Positions 24,201 through 30,472 of a stretch of 35,858 bases of DNA are shown in pieces (position 1 is the stretch's first letter; each line of letters starts with the position of its first letter). The translations under genes were made by a program, and so were the position numbers. The stretch spans positions 1-35,858 of the forward strand of contig JAAYCU010000244.1 in assembly GCA_012729595.1 (NCBI GenBank), given 5' to 3'. The notes under the pieces were generated by a model. That model saw only the letters and a list, made by a program, of their open reading frames with translations. It searched no databases and was not told the origin of the DNA. This DNA comes from Phycisphaerales bacterium. GTDB lineage: Bacteria; Planctomycetota; Phycisphaerae; UBA1845; PWPN01.

Positions 24201-25772
24201 TTACGGACACAGATCCTTCATATCCTCCGAGCAGGCCGAGGGGATATTGTTGTTGAGCATGATTTCCGGGGTCAATCTGGCGACCTGTTCGGGTTCGAGA
24301 ACAATCTTTTCCTCGTAATCGTTCTCGAAGCGGAAAATTATGAACGGCTTGTCGCTCGTATCTTTGACGAGCTGGATCATGTGCCGCAGGTTTTTGACCG
24401 GCTCGTCGTTTACATGGGTGACTACGGATAACGGCGAGACGCCATACCCCTTGGTCAATCGGTGGGGAAGGATCGGACTGACTAGAGCGACCATTTCGTC
24501 ATCCGTATCGGTGCGATAGTCACGAATTTTCCGGGCGAGCAGGCTGCCGCGCAGACCGAGGATGGCAAAATATCGGGCGGCCGATTGGACCAGTTCGGTG
24601 GTCACGGGTGAAAAGACCAGCCCGCCGTAAATGAAGTAGGTCGGACGCTTGCCGGTCATCCGCTGGACGAGGGTGTTTCGGTTGGTAATTGTAGGGAGTT
24701 CAACGGTTAAGGACTGCCCGTCACGGATCAGGTCGAGCTTGATCGTGCTGCCGGGCGACTTGCGGGCGATCAGGTACGGCCAATCCACGCGAACGCCATC
24801 GGCGATCGAAACCATGCCCAGGTTGTCCACATTAACCCCGTCGCAAGCGGTCACCACGTCCCATGGTTTGAGCAGGTCCGCGATTTCCGGACGATTCACC
24901 CGGTGGATGACCACGCCGGTCTGCTCGCGAGTCAGCTTGAGAAAATCGCGGAGAGCGGGGTTTTCCAGGGTCGCGCCCGCGGCGTCGATCTTGGGGAACC
25001 CGTCGTATCGCCCGTTACTGGTCCAGTCGTCGAGGAAATGGCGGATGACCTCCGCGGGGATCAGGTAGCCGATGTTCTCCGCCTCGCTGAGTTTACTGAA
25101 GACGATGCCGGTGATTTTCCCATCGACGATGCCCGGCCCGCCGCTGTTGCCGGGGTTGATGGCCGCGTCCACCTGAATACGCAAGGCCGCCGTTTCATAG
25201 TAGTACGCCCCGTATTCGATCCGGGAAACGACGCCCTCGGTGATAGAGAGGGAATCCCCGCCGGTGGGGAAACCGAGTACGTTGATCTTGTCCTTGATTT
25301 TGGGCAGGGCGTCGGCCAGGGGAACGGGCTGGCGGTCGGCGATGGCCTCCGGATCCTCCAGCCTGAGGGTGGCAAGGTCGCAATCCTCGGCGATGAATTC
25401 GATTTCCGCGTGCAGTTTTTCCGAGGATTCGTTGGGCTGAACGTAAATCTGCTGGGCGTACGCCACCACGTGGGCATTGGTCAGGATGCGCCCGCCCTCG
25501 ATGATCACGCCCGAGCCGGTGACTTCGGACGGCGGGGTGATCTGCCATGGCTGGAACATGTTGGGCGGGGACTTGCTGGCGAAAATCTTGACTACGGACG
25601 GCTTAACATCCGAGCCAACGGCCATGGCGGGTACGGCCAGCCCCAGAGACATTACCAACGTCGCCATTCGAACTCCGTAACGCGCCATCATTATGTTGTC
25701 CTCGGTCGTAAATGGATTATTTCTGCCCATCGCCACGGCATGAATCATCCACTTATTGGGCGGTAAGATCAA
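24201..25772 (-). CDS. HtrA/Deg-type serine protease (S1C) with PDZ-like region
   Basis: Triad motifs ILTNAHVV, DCDLATLRLED, INPGNSGGPGI; downstream PDZ-like sequence; signal peptide. True start may be internal (MMARYGVRMATLVMSLGLAVPAMA). Confidence 0.9.
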   Translation of the reverse strand: MILPPNKWMIHAVAMGRNNPFTTEDNIMMARYGVRMATLVMSLGLAVPAMAVGSDVKPSVVKIFASKSPPNMFQPWQITPPSEVTGSGVIIEGGRILTNAHVVAYAQQIYVQPNESSEKLHAEIEFIAEDCDLATLRLEDPEAIADRQPVPLADALPKIKDKINVLGFPTGGDSLSITEGVVSRIEYGAYYYETAALRIQVDAAINPGNSGGPGIVDGKITGIVFSKLSEAENIGYLIPAEVIRHFLDDWTSNGRYDGFPKIDAAGATLENPALRDFLKLTREQTGVVIHRVNRPEIADLLKPWDVVTACDGVNVDNLGMVSIADGVRVDWPYLIARKSPGSTIKLDLIRDGQSLTVELPTITNRNTLVQRMTGKRPTYFIYGGLVFSPVTTELVQSAARYFAILGLRGSLLARKIRDYRTDTDDEMVALVSPILPHRLTKGYGVSPLSVVTHVNDEPVKNLRHMIQLVKDTSDKPFIIFRFENDYEEKIVLEPEQVARLTPEIMLNNNIPSACSEDMKDLCP

Positions 25773-25887: not shown

Positions 25888-26373
25888 GTGCGGTCAGCAT
25901 ATACGTTACCGATCAGGGGCCGAACTATGTACAGGTCAGGCATGGCGGGTAGAGATACGATATCCGCGGGCGCGCGTTACCTGCATATGCGGAGGAACCC
26001 GGTTCGGTCCAGTTCTTGGCCGGTTTTCCTGGCGGTCGTTTGCTTGCCGTTGATTGGTTGTGCGCCACCGGCAACGCCTTATCCGCGGTCGCTCATTTCA
26101 GAACGGCCTGCGGAGCGGATCGCGGCGGTCAAACACGCGGCCGAGATCGGCGACGAGTCCGTGATCGCCATTCTTGTACAACGGCTGGAGGATACCGACG
26201 AGGCAGTGCGTTTTTTCGCCATCATTGCCCTGGAAAAAATGACCGGCGAGCGTTTTGGATACCAGTACTACGATTCCGAGGTCGAGCGCGCTCGGGCCGT
26301 CACCCGTTGGCGGCGGTATCTACAGGAACGTTACCCGGTAGCATCGCAACCGGAAGGCGGGGCGGCCTTATGA
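25888..26373 (+). CDS. HEAT-repeat lipoprotein
   Basis: Lipobox VCLPLIGC; ERIAAVKHAAEIGDESVIAILVQRLEDTDEAVRFFAIIALEKMTG resembles HEAT repeats. Confidence 0.7.
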   Translation: MRSAYTLPIRGRTMYRSGMAGRDTISAGARYLHMRRNPVRSSSWPVFLAVVCLPLIGCAPPATPYPRSLISERPAERIAAVKHAAEIGDESVIAILVQRLEDTDEAVRFFAIIALEKMTGERFGYQYYDSEVERARAVTRWRRYLQERYPVASQPEGGAAL

Positions 26374-26879
26374 GCGATACCGGCAAGCAAGGTTTTGGGG
26401 AAAAGATAGACTTGCGGGTGACCAGCGAACCCGAGCATATCGCCACCGTGCGCCAAGCTGTCCAGGAAGCGGCCGCGTTTCTCGGCTTTGCCGAGGAAGC
26501 CGTTGCCGCTGTTACCCTGGCTATCAATGAGGCTATGGCTAACGTGATCCAGCATGGTTATGGTGGGCGGGCGGGCCAGCCGATCGAGGTGATCATCGAG
26601 CCGGTGCATCGCGGCTCCGCCGTTGGCCTGCAAATGACCGTCCGTGATTGTTGTCCCCACATCGATCCGAGTACTATTGTTGGCCGCGATCTGAAAGATG
26701 TACGGCCGGGCGGGCTGGGCACGCATATCATCAAGACGGCCATGGATGAGGTAGAATATACACAACGCCGTCCGCAGGGTATGTGCCTGAGAATGTTGAA
26801 AATGCTGAACACGCCGCCGACTCGATCAGGGCCGGACCGTTCTACAGACCAGGAGGATTCCGCGCATGGCCGATCATGA
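26370..26879 (+). CDS. RsbW-like anti-sigma regulatory factor / serine kinase (HATPase)
   Basis: N-box AINEAMANVIQHGYGG; GRDLKDVRPGGLGTHIIKTAMDEVEYT G2-type motif; ATG at 26370 overlaps the previous stop as ATGA. Confidence 0.88.
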   Translation: MSDTGKQGFGEKIDLRVTSEPEHIATVRQAVQEAAAFLGFAEEAVAAVTLAINEAMANVIQHGYGGRAGQPIEVIIEPVHRGSAVGLQMTVRDCCPHIDPSTIVGRDLKDVRPGGLGTHIIKTAMDEVEYTQRRPQGMCLRMLKMLNTPPTRSGPDRSTDQEDSAHGRS

Positions 26880-27213
26880 TAATTGTGTCCGGGAAGTGCG
26901 ACGAGAGGGGAACGATATAGTTGTATCCCTGGCCGGCGAAATCGATCTGCACAAGGCACCTGAGGTACACCGCGCGCTGGTGGGCGCTTGCGAGGGGAAA
27001 CCACGGAATCTCGTGGTCAATCTAGAGCAGGTGACATACATGGATTCGTCGGGAATCGGCACCCTGGTGGAAGTGTTCCGGCGGGTTAATGCCTATGAGG
27101 GCAAGCTGGGGCTCTCCGGCGTCGGTCCGCGGGTGCGCAGCCTGTTTGAAATCACCAAACTGGACAAGTTTTTCAATATTTATCCGAGCGAGGCGGAGGC
27201 CCTGCGGGCATGA
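26866..27213 (+). CDS. STAS-domain protein (anti-sigma factor antagonist / MlaB-like)
   Basis: LVVNLEQVTYMDSSGIGTLVEVFRRV with the conserved DSSG motif; AGGAGG SD at about 26851; overlaps the end of the RsbW-like gene. Confidence 0.92.
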   Translation: MADHDNCVREVRREGNDIVVSLAGEIDLHKAPEVHRALVGACEGKPRNLVVNLEQVTYMDSSGIGTLVEVFRRVNAYEGKLGLSGVGPRVRSLFEITKLDKFFNIYPSEAEALRA

Positions 27214-28067
27214 GCGACCTTGCTCCCCAACCACGGGTAAACCGGCTGGTAGCGGCGATTACCGCTTTTGGGCAAGCCGTCATTATCGGGGGACAGCACG
27301 CTCGATCCCATGTGCACTATATAGGGGGGCTGGGGTATCTGCTGTATGACACCACGGTGTGGGTATTGCGCTGCCTATTTCTTCCGCGGCAGAAAATTGG
27401 CTGGCCGGCTTTAGCTTCCCAAATGGTCCGCGTTGGTGTGCGGAGCATCGGCATCATTGTCCTTGTGCAATCCTTTATCGGAGTAATACTCGCCCTGCAA
27501 TTGGCTCCGACGCTGGAAGCCTATGGACAACTGGAACGCGTTGCGGATGTCGTGGGGATCGCCATGTTTCGCGAGTTGGGGCCGTTGCTGGCGGCCATTG
27601 TGCTCAGTGGTTTCGCCGGGGCCTCCATCGCAGCTGAAATCGGCGCGATGGTCGAGGCCGAGGAAATCAAGGCATTGCGGGCTCACGCACTGAATCCCAT
27701 CCGTTTTCTGGTCATGCCTCGTTGTCTGGCTACTGTGATTATGCTCATTGGGCTGACCGTCTTATCCGATGTCGTCGGCATACTAGGCGGGATGATCACC
27801 AGTTGGCTGGTGCTGGACATCGGCCCGCGTAAGTATCTTTATTTTACACAGGTGGCCTTGGTTTACAGGGACTTTATCACCGGGCTGGTTAAAGCCGGCG
27901 TGTTTGGTCTGCTGATTTCCATCATCGCCTGCTACGAGGGGTTGAACGTCAGCGGAGGGGCCGTCGGGGTGGGCCGAGCTACGACGGCAACCGTGGTTAA
28001 GTCAATAGTAGTTCTGATAGCAACCGACTGCGTGTTTACCGCGATGTTTTTCCTGTTCAAATTGTAG
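27210..28067 (+). CDS. mlaE: MlaE family ABC transporter permease
   Basis: QSFIGVILALQLAPTLEAYGQLERVADVVGIAMFRELGPLLAAIVLSGFAGASIAAEIGAM; ATG overlaps the STAS stop as ATGA. Confidence 0.93.
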   Translation: MSDLAPQPRVNRLVAAITAFGQAVIIGGQHARSHVHYIGGLGYLLYDTTVWVLRCLFLPRQKIGWPALASQMVRVGVRSIGIIVLVQSFIGVILALQLAPTLEAYGQLERVADVVGIAMFRELGPLLAAIVLSGFAGASIAAEIGAMVEAEEIKALRAHALNPIRFLVMPRCLATVIMLIGLTVLSDVVGILGGMITSWLVLDIGPRKYLYFTQVALVYRDFITGLVKAGVFGLLISIIACYEGLNVSGGAVGVGRATTATVVKSIVVLIATDCVFTAMFFLFKL

Positions 28068-28076
28068 GACTGGGGC

Positions 28077-28967
28077 ATGACGAACGTGGCTGTGGATGTG
28101 CCGAATAATGCGGTGATCGCGGTTCGGGATCTGGTAATGAGCTTTGCCGGACCCGACGGTCGGCTGGTACACGTGCTGGACGGGGTCAGCTTCGAGGTCT
28201 ACGCCGGCGAGACCTTGGTAATCATGGGCGGCTCGGGCTGCGGCAAAAGCACTCTGTTAAACTGCCTGATCGGCGAACTGCGGCCGACCGATGGGCACAT
28301 TTATTATCGAATCAAGGGAATGAATCAGCCGGTTGACCTGCGGGCCATGAACGAGAAAGGGCTGAACGAACTGCGCAAGCGGTTTGGTATCCTTTTTCAG
28401 AGCGGGGCGTTGTTTAATTCCATGACCGTTGCGGAGAACATAGCTCTGCCACTGCAAGAACACTCGTACGTCGATTCGTCGATCATCGACATCGTCGTTA
28501 CCCTAAAGCTTCAGCAGGTCCACATGCTCGAGCATCGGGATAAGATGCCCGCGCAACTGTCTGGCGGCCAGAAGAAACGCGCCGGACTGGCCCGGGCGAC
28601 CGCTTTGGATCCGGAGATTCTGTATTATGATGAACCATCAGCCGGATTGGATCCCGTAACCTCGGCGGCCATCGACCAGTTGATGATGGATCTGTCCAAG
28701 AAGCTGCAAGTGACCTCGGTGGTGGTGACTCATGAAATGGATTCGGCCTTTCGCATCGCCGATCGCATGGTCATGCTGGATCGCGGAAAGGTTTTGAAGA
28801 TTGGCCGTCGCGAGGAATTTGAGTCTTTGCGAGATACATCGCCCGAGAGGCTGGCCAATGACGACGAACGGTTGATACATCAATTTCTTTGCGGTGATCC
28901 GGAAGGCCCGTTGACTAAGGCCGACGGTACGAGCGAATATGAGAAGCTGATTATCGCCGGAGAGTAA
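28077..28967 (+). CDS. mlaF: ABC transporter ATP-binding protein (MlaF-like)
   Basis: Walker A GGSGCGKSTLLN; signature LSGGQKKRAGLARA; Walker B ILYYDEPSAGLDP; VVTHEM. Confidence 0.93.
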   Translation: MTNVAVDVPNNAVIAVRDLVMSFAGPDGRLVHVLDGVSFEVYAGETLVIMGGSGCGKSTLLNCLIGELRPTDGHIYYRIKGMNQPVDLRAMNEKGLNELRKRFGILFQSGALFNSMTVAENIALPLQEHSYVDSSIIDIVVTLKLQQVHMLEHRDKMPAQLSGGQKKRAGLARATALDPEILYYDEPSAGLDPVTSAAIDQLMMDLSKKLQVTSVVVTHEMDSAFRIADRMVMLDRGKVLKIGRREEFESLRDTSPERLANDDERLIHQFLCGDPEGPLTKADGTSEYEKLIIAGE

Positions 28968-29008
28968 ATTGAAATAATCGGAAGAATGTTCGGTGGAGGA
29001 CAGTGAGA

Positions 29009-29128
29009 ATGAGCGTTGTGCCGACACTCTCTATAACTCGGCCCCTCCGTCAGAAGTCATTACGGTATATGTACGTAGCGATAGAAACCAACGGACGGAT
29101 GCAGTATAGGAAGCGTAATCGGGAGTAG
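29009..29128 (+). CDS. Small ORF (39 aa) filling the mlaF-mlaD gap, unknown function
   Basis: Manual translation MSVVPTLSITRPLRQKSLRYMYVAIETNGRMQYRKRNRE*; GGAGG at 28995-28999, 9 nt before the ATG; stop lies 3 nt before the mlaD ATG. Below the ORF-track size cutoff. Confidence 0.45.
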   Translation: MSVVPTLSITRPLRQKSLRYMYVAIETNGRMQYRKRNRE

Positions 29129-29131
29129 ACC

Positions 29132-30472
29132 ATGCCCGCGGAACGAAACGCCTTCAAGCTCGGTTTGGCGATGATTCTATTTTTCGTGCTGTTCATCGTG
29201 GTCCTGGTCTATCTGGCTCCGGCCGGCGGCGGCAATCTGACTCTTTACGTGCGATTCCCCCACACTCAATTCACCACCAAGCTCCAGCCGGGTGCTCAGG
29301 TGACCTGTGGTGGGCAGCCGGCCGGGAGCATCGAGAAAATCGAACTCCGCGTGGAAACGGACGAAAACTCCGGATACGAGGAATTATTCGCGATCGTCAC
29401 CTGTCGAGTACGGTCGTCGCTTGGGTTGCGCAAGGATTGCGTGATTAGGCCGGTCGAGGCCCTGCTAGGCGGGATGGGCGAGTTGGTCATCAAGGATCGT
29501 GGTCTTGGCGACCCGGTTCAGGCCCATGATATCATTGATGGGGCGCCAACCCCCGGTATCGATGACCTGAAGGACAGCCTTGCGGGCCAATTGGACCCCA
29601 ATGACCCGTCCAGCCTGCTGGCCCTGCTCCAAGCCCAGTTGAAAGGGGAGGATCCCCGCAGCACCATCGGGCGTGTTCTGGCCATTCTCGACGATTTGCA
29701 GGCCGTCAGCCGGAACCTCCGCAACGAATTCGATCCGGGGGAACAACAGGCTCTGTTGGCCAAGCTGCATTCCATTCTGGGCGGTATCAATGATCTGACT
29801 CATAGCCTGCGGACGGAGATGGACCGGTCCGCCGATCAGGCCGCCATCGTTAAAATCCATGATATTATTGATTCGCTGAGCCGGGCCCTGCGAACGACGA
29901 CCGATATGCTGGAGGATAATCGCACTCCTATCCATGAAACCATCAAGCACGTACGGTCCACCGCCGAGATGCTGGACACTCAAATTGTCGCCCGGATCGC
30001 CAGCCAGCTCGATCCGACCGAGGCCGCCGGCCTGCTGGCCAAGGTACACGTCGCCCTGGATCGGCTTAACGGTTCGCTTAAGGATATCGGGGACATTTCC
30101 GCTGCCGGCCGGGAAGTCGTGGTACTCAACACCGAGCGATTGCATCAGATCATCGGGAACTTCAAGGAAACATCGGACCATCTGAAGGCCACCAGCAAGG
30201 AGTTGCGACGGAACCCGTGGCGTCTTTTGTATCAACCAACCCTGGTCGAGGCCGAGCAGGCCAACCTCCACGATTCGGCCACGGCGTTTGCCGAGGCGGC
30301 CACCCGGCTGGACGACGCCATTGCCCGCTTGCAAGCCTTGCAGCAGGCCGGTGGCGGAACCATCCCGGCCGACGACCGTCAGTTGGCTGAAATCATCGAG
30401 CATTTGCACAACACGTTTTCACGTTTTCACCAGGTGGAAACAGCTTTGTGGCAGCAGTTGAAGATCAAATAA
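29132..30472 (+). CDS. mlaD: MCE/MlaD domain protein with long helical C-terminal region
   Basis: N-terminal TM anchor, then LTLYVRFPHTQFTTKLQPGAQVTCGGQPAGSIEKIEL MCE motif; long coiled/amphipathic C-terminal region. Confidence 0.87.
   Translation: MPAERNAFKLGLAMILFFVLFIVVLVYLAPAGGGNLTLYVRFPHTQFTTKLQPGAQVTCGGQPAGSIEKIELRVETDENSGYEELFAIVTCRVRSSLGLRKDCVIRPVEALLGGMGELVIKDRGLGDPVQAHDIIDGAPTPGIDDLKDSLAGQLDPNDPSSLLALLQAQLKGEDPRSTIGRVLAILDDLQAVSRNLRNEFDPGEQQALLAKLHSILGGINDLTHSLRTEMDRSADQAAIVKIHDIIDSLSRALRTTTDMLEDNRTPIHETIKHVRSTAEMLDTQIVARIASQLDPTEAAGLLAKVHVALDRLNGSLKDIGDISAAGREVVVLNTERLHQIIGNFKETSDHLKATSKELRRNPWRLLYQPTLVEAEQANLHDSATAFAEAATRLDDAIARLQALQQAGGGTIPADDRQLAEIIEHLHNTFSRFHQVETALWQQLKIK

Follow-up and report, generated by a model that had tools for sequence, protein, structure and literature searches.

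Positions 1 to 35,858 of contig JAAYCU010000244.1 of a Phycisphaerales bacterium (assembly GCA_012729595.1), hereafter the window, carry between 25888 and 30472 an MCE/Mla operon for an outer-membrane lipid transporter that includes genes for an RsbW/SpoIIAB-type kinase (KIN) and a STAS-domain protein. Read from its open reading frames (ORFs), the operon on the plus strand encodes, in this order, a HEAT-repeat lipoprotein, KIN, STAS, MlaE, MlaF and a divergent MCE protein. Judged by sequence, it probably specifies an MCE/Mla transporter (MlaE-MlaF-MCE) with an MlaB-type STAS subunit under the control of a dedicated RsbW-type serine kinase. The features are:

25987 to 26373, plus strand: HEAT-repeat lipoprotein (Pfam HEAT_2, 36 bits; signal peptide and LPLIGC lipobox visible in the sequence)
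26370 to 26879, plus strand: KIN, RsbW/SpoIIAB-type serine kinase (Pfam HATPase_c_2, 97 bits; fold; E54 and N58 invariant)
26866 to 27213, plus strand: STAS, predicted MlaB equivalent and kinase substrate (Pfam STAS, 89 bits; ant_ant_sig; structure model)
27043 to 27054, plus strand: codons of D60-S61-S62-G63, with S61 the predicted phospho-acceptor, aligned with T52 of E. coli MlaB
27210 to 28067, plus strand: MlaE permease (Pfam MlaE, 225 bits)
28077 to 28967, plus strand: MlaF ATPase with the C-terminal tail EYEKLIIAGE (Pfam ABC_tran, 109 bits; tail alignment to E. coli)
29132 to 30472, plus strand: divergent MCE (MlaD-like) protein (TIGR00996, 42 bits, below the cut-off; homologues at the same place in relatives)

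The first three junctions overlap: the HEAT stop codon (26371-26373) and the KIN start codon (ATG, 26370) by 4 nt, the KIN stop codon (26877-26879) and the STAS start codon (ATG, 26866) by 14 nt, and the STAS stop codon (27211-27213) and the MlaE start codon (ATG, 27210) again by 4 nt. ORFs and Pfam matches agree with the single-strand run and with these overlaps as given in a first-pass annotation of this DNA, and the recurrence of the gene order across the phylum shows that it is not due to chance. Two other details of that annotation were revised. The lipoprotein had been started at GTG 25888, while ATG 25987 is the likelier start (MRRNP...LPLIGC, ending in the lipobox), and a "small ORF" placed between the MlaF and MCE genes is a short frame in a 164-nt gap, which is probably a spacer and not a gene, since relatives mostly have less than 100 nt there. 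The last protein has a single N-terminal membrane segment and a long helical region; it had been called MlaD. It is MCE/MlaD-like, and the homologue in a relative does carry an MlaD domain (46.7 bits; genome G212, C140:3781-3987, within the MlaD-like gene of locus L200), but as the window protein gave no Pfam MlaD match of its own and only the sub-threshold TIGR00996 score, it is described here as a divergent MCE protein.

A search with KIN over 199 genomes of the phylum repeatedly returned HEAT-KIN-STAS-MlaE in the neighbourhoods of the best loci, and the motif [VI]RPGGLG[VT]H, run against 84,980 species genomes, yielded at least 550 relatives. Among the best 80 of these, nearly all titled Phycisphaerae or Planctomycetota, STAS lies no more than 300 nt after KIN in 77 of 77 such pairs and MlaE within 300 nt after STAS in 65 of 66. 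A class sample of 61 genomes contained a strong KIN match (≥90 bits) in 31, and 29 of the 31 lie within ~2.5 kb of MlaE; when the tables were compared by eye, none of the weaker HATPase matches in this sample was near MlaE. Across 392 genomes of the phylum, KIN-STAS occurs with MlaE in at least 54 genomes from at least 20 family groups, or at least 26 once the class sample is added, these counts being lower bounds because not all weaker matches had their neighbourhoods read. Two further genomes of the 392 show the order MlaF-STAS-KIN. The association of the kinase-STAS pair with mlaE, and often with mlaF and mlaD too, extends over many planctomycete families; its absence from relatives would have refuted the first-pass annotation. 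The HEAT gene adjoins KIN or STAS in most relatives; it is among the most constant members of the operon and is retained even after KIN has been lost, and its product may be a periplasmic part or a sensor.

KIN and STAS are closest to RsbW/RsbV and SpoIIAB/SpoIIAA, and the two could be a conventional partner switch that acts on a sigma factor from another locus and has no more than the operon in common with the lipid transporter. Sigma-70 region 3 occurs in four proteins encoded elsewhere in the source genome, which would fit such a role. The window contig, on the other hand, has no match to sigma-70 region 2, so that the search for a cognate sigma factor did not refute a switch acting on the transporter. 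The KIN-STAS pair also tracks MlaE across the phylum through reordered clusters, STAS remains with MlaE after KIN loss, and the MlaF tail, as described below, tracks STAS. Sigma factors could moreover be served by a separate locus of the source genome, a STAS-KIN-STAS triplet (C268; L071, 9111-10345) with the only other RsbW-type kinase of such kind. A sigma partner in trans may exist, and the genes flanking the related loci were not screened systematically for sigma factors, yet taken together we regard a sigma switch as unlikely.

KIN itself was modelled with a pLDDT (predicted local distance difference test) score of 84, and its closest folds are RsbW and SpoIIAB; it scores below the equivalog cut-offs of both families (RsbW, 55.7 bits versus 145; SpoIIAB, 37.9 versus 135). 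In a tree of 108 kinases the mla-linked ones fall into one group of 89 rows, with a support of 99 in the Shimodaira-Hasegawa-like approximate likelihood ratio test (SH-aLRT); for this short protein, many inner branches are without resolution. The single row of the group with a phosphatase-kinase-STAS label, L284, is a fusion of KIN with a phosphatase and belongs to the same subfamily, while ordinary phosphatase-kinase-STAS triads (L271, L273, L275, L279-L283, L296-L300, L302) lie outside. The mla-linked kinases are marked by R106 and R112-P113-G114-G115-L116-G117-x-H119, whereas the triads mostly have P106, K113 and F119. Five loci in the Phycisphaerae part of the tree come from assemblies titled Vicinamibacteraceae, Cyanobacteria or Verrucomicrobia subdivision 6 (L107, L118, L127, L134, L145); these are probably mislabelled or misbinned metagenome-assembled genomes and were not counted as other phyla. 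The N-box Glu (E54) and Asn (N58) are invariant in all 146 KIN relatives and the G-x-G lid is retained. In the D-x-G box, Asp93 is found in 141 of the 146, and the third residue is Ala in 74, Gly in 60 and Cys in 10. Fusions of KIN to STAS or to MlaE were looked for and not found, and an apparent 887-aa KIN ORF at L085 is spurious, arising from an open frame that extends far upstream.

STAS matches the ant_ant_sig superfamily with 91 bits (cut-off 53) and fails the MlaB family model NF033618 (22.9 bits, cut-off 90). Its structure model (pLDDT 89.5) most closely resembles RsbV and SpoIIAA as seen in complex with their kinases; MlaB comes only at rank 37. The protein is 115 aa long, and the model shows an extra strand and helix (104-114); E. 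coli MlaB is without the last strand and helix (PMC7367683). The DSSG motif noted earlier is present, more exactly as M59-D60-S61-S62-G63. D60-S61 aligns with D51-T52 of E. coli MlaB, in which T52 sits at the MlaF interface and the exchange T52E weakens MlaF binding (PMC7367683). The acceptor position is Ser or Thr in all 93 kinase-linked STAS proteins (83 Ser, 10 Thr). Ten kinase-linked loci (from L090-L169 and relatives) have xTPG where others have DSSG (A, N, G or S at 60, Thr at 61), and their kinase may target threonine. The best reading of STAS is that it is the MlaB of this transporter and would as such bind MlaF.

Lineages without KIN (L170-L188) have HEAT-STAS-MlaE-MlaF-MlaD in unchanged order, and in the STAS tree they are placed within or next to KIN-bearing families in at least four cases (f5, f83/f84, f88, f91). 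This indicates that KIN was lost repeatedly while STAS was kept with the transporter. In one such family, f86 (L178-L182), the acceptor has decayed to GGAG, HGAG or SGAC and STAS still lies between HEAT and MlaE; taken as a natural experiment, the correlated loss of KIN and acceptor serine lends weak support to a kinase-substrate relation, as it is seen in a single family. The KIN-less loci also bear on the idea that STAS is an MlaB-like structural subunit and KIN a passenger gene or a kinase with another target, since several of these families keep STAS with an intact DSSG. Such a role for KIN is nevertheless highly improbable in view of the tight spacing in all 77 KIN-STAS pairs, the loss of the acceptor site only in the KIN-less f86 and the resemblance of both proteins to known kinase-substrate partners.

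Some families encode a phosphatase together with the switch. In three of them KIN is immediately preceded, on the same strand, by a SpoIIE-type PP2C, and STAS-MlaE-MlaF-MlaD come after: at L081 a protein of 341 aa (151 bits, overlapping ORFs), at L087 an FHA-GAF-SpoIIE protein (160 bits) and at L077 a SpoIIE-type protein (127 bits). Another two families have KIN, GAF and SpoIIE joined in a single protein. The fusion of L082/L083 has STAS and MlaF as neighbours, and its cluster also holds an MCE gene and MlaE; that of L032/L284 lies beside STAS, with no mla gene in the stretch read. The source genome has nine SpoIIE-type phosphatases, and at the eight loci read none is beside mla genes. If a phospho-switch acts on the transporter, kinase and phosphatase genes are expected to lie with those of STAS and the transporter, and the linkage or fusion in five families supports a kinase-switched transporter. 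It also bears on whether KIN is catalytic at all. KIN could instead be a partner that does not phosphorylate STAS but sequesters it or becomes part of the complex, for which the altered D-x-G box (D-C-C in the window) and the serine retained in KIN-less lineages might be cited. The invariant N-box residues and the G-x-G lid oppose this, and a PP2C in five families is sensible only given a phosphorylated target; we hold a non-catalytic KIN to be improbable.

Evidence for the predicted docking of STAS comes from MlaF. The nearest solved structures to the window MlaF are MlaF, and the tail of the L205 MlaF was aligned without gaps with E. coli and P. aeruginosa MlaF. In E. coli, Tyr261, Leu265 and Leu266 of the tail sit between MlaB and MlaF (PMC7367683). 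In an anchored alignment, a C-terminal extension of this MlaB-contacting type was found in 49 of the 53 MlaF proteins that have a STAS gene alongside, against 1 of the 32 that lack one, by a broad pattern adopted after seeing the data because a first, narrow one missed shorter-spaced variants, and with the two sets being partly paralogous clades and not independent observations. The sole tail-bearing MlaF without STAS (L173) is on a contig that starts just upstream of MlaE, so that STAS could have been cut off. As a caveat on the link between tail and STAS, the MlaF of an MlaB-less Veillonella is reported to carry the tail in a shorter form (PMC10665443). In many Phycisphaerae the operon stops after MlaE, leaving HEAT-KIN-STAS-MlaE as the conserved unit, and MlaF and MlaD are encoded elsewhere; the best MlaF match elsewhere in these genomes is 54-72% identical to the window MlaF and in some of them (e.g. 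G095, G034, G002, G172) adjoins an MCE gene. KIN-STAS thus remains with MlaE even where MlaF is moved. The source genome (G000) has a second, ordinary MlaE-MlaF-MCE system (C222:6923-8431, L070) without STAS or kinase, and its MlaF has no docking tail.

The first-pass annotation suggested that STAS may act as MlaB and be switched by the adjacent kinase, and the conserved linkage, the absence of a sigma factor from the contig, the MlaF tail and the linked PP2C support this. Unphosphorylated STAS would dock on MlaF, against its C-terminal tail, and keep the ATPase assembled and active. KIN would phosphorylate STAS at S61 and may also hold STAS, so that docking would be prevented and transport would go down. 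On a signal, a PP2C, operon-encoded or KIN-fused in some families and probably unlinked here, would remove the phosphate and restore transport. The sequence itself shows the order of the genes, their families and conservation, the residues of active site and acceptor, the MlaF tail and the linked phosphatases; from there we infer the phosphorylation, the binding, the direction of the effect and the signal. Several points weigh against the scheme. The D-x-G box of the window KIN is changed in its third residue, which is Ala in half of the relatives, and this could signify weak ATP turnover. The serine persists in 13 of 18 KIN-less STAS proteins, those of lineages other than f86, and may there serve some other purpose or a different kinase. 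HEAT-KIN-STAS occurs at a few loci with no MlaE close by, and at the phosphatase-linked L081, L082 and L083 the MlaF lacks the usual tail motif, so details must differ between subtypes. In E. coli, finally, the MlaB exchange T52A leaves MlaB bound but impairs ATPase activity (PMC7367683). At L082 (8599-9444) and L083 (9951-10781), MlaF ends in a cysteine-rich, zinc-ribbon-like segment with CxxC pairs and not in a YxxDLL tail.

The same genetic linkage would be predicted if information flowed in reverse, with the state of the transporter controlling free STAS or KIN and so reporting lipid-transport status to some output; the operon lipoprotein could then be an envelope sensor. No output gene was noticed in the loci read, though none was systematically sought, and the retention of STAS with the transporter in the absence of KIN suggests that STAS serves the transporter itself. 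We consider a reverse flow very unlikely. For control of the transporter by the switch, we lean towards an origin in which an MCE operon acquired a complete kinase-phosphatase partner switch in a single event, early in the evolution of planctomycetes; the switch would phosphorylate the MlaB-type STAS and control the transporter directly.

The system shares with E. coli MlaFEDB the MlaE, MlaF and MCE proteins with a STAS protein, the MlaB-contacting MlaF extension and an acceptor position aligned with MlaB T52. It differs in that its STAS is long, RsbV-like, fails the MlaB model and is encoded with a kinase, and in that the operon has a HEAT lipoprotein and no mlaC. Minimal MlaEFD transporters (Veillonella; G000 C222) have the same MlaE-MlaF-MCE core, without STAS and with an MlaF that lacks the docking tail motif (L070). 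With the RsbU-RsbW-RsbV and SpoIIE-SpoIIAB-SpoIIAA switches it has in common the kinase, the DSSG-bearing STAS substrate, the SpoIIE-type phosphatase of some families and the nearest folds; unlike them, it has no sigma factor on the contig, is linked to an ABC/MCE transporter and has a kinase of a separate clade (R-P-G-G-L-G-x-H). Partner switches normally control gene expression. A non-sigma example is SiaB-SiaC of Pseudomonas, in which SiaC acts on a cyclase. Another is SypE-SypA of Vibrio fischeri, an RsbW-like kinase and a small phosphorylatable partner with a non-sigma output (PMC10120452, PMC4517449). In both, as proposed here, an RsbW-like kinase and a small partner control a target other than a sigma factor, but neither is known to control a lipid or other ABC transporter.

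E. coli MlaB has no known kinase, and no phosphorylation was known when the MlaFB structure was solved, phosphoregulation of MlaB being left as an explicit open question (Kolich 2020, PMC7367683). In the open-access literature, MlaB and RsbW were not found together, an earlier mention elsewhere being possible, and the combination of STAS domain, phospholipid transport, kinase, phosphatase and ABC transporter yielded only the MlaFB structure paper (PMC7367683). The component families are known; their combination was not found in that literature. A phylogenomic census described MlaA, MlaB and MlaC as mostly confined to Proteobacteria (PMC10665443). The present locus suggests MlaB-like subunits well outside this group, and STAS proteins that are RsbV-like and fail the MlaB model would explain why the census missed them. 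If the proposed control is real, partner switching would extend from gene control to the direct control of a membrane transporter, with a lipid ABC transporter as output and a first kinase for an MlaB-type protein. As the predicted kinase, its substrate and sometimes a phosphatase are encoded with the transporter, phosphoregulation of MlaB becomes testable with two or three purified proteins.

The window also encodes an HtrA/DegP-like protease with Trypsin_2 and PDZ domains (24201-25772, minus strand), immediately upstream of the operon and transcribed divergently from it.

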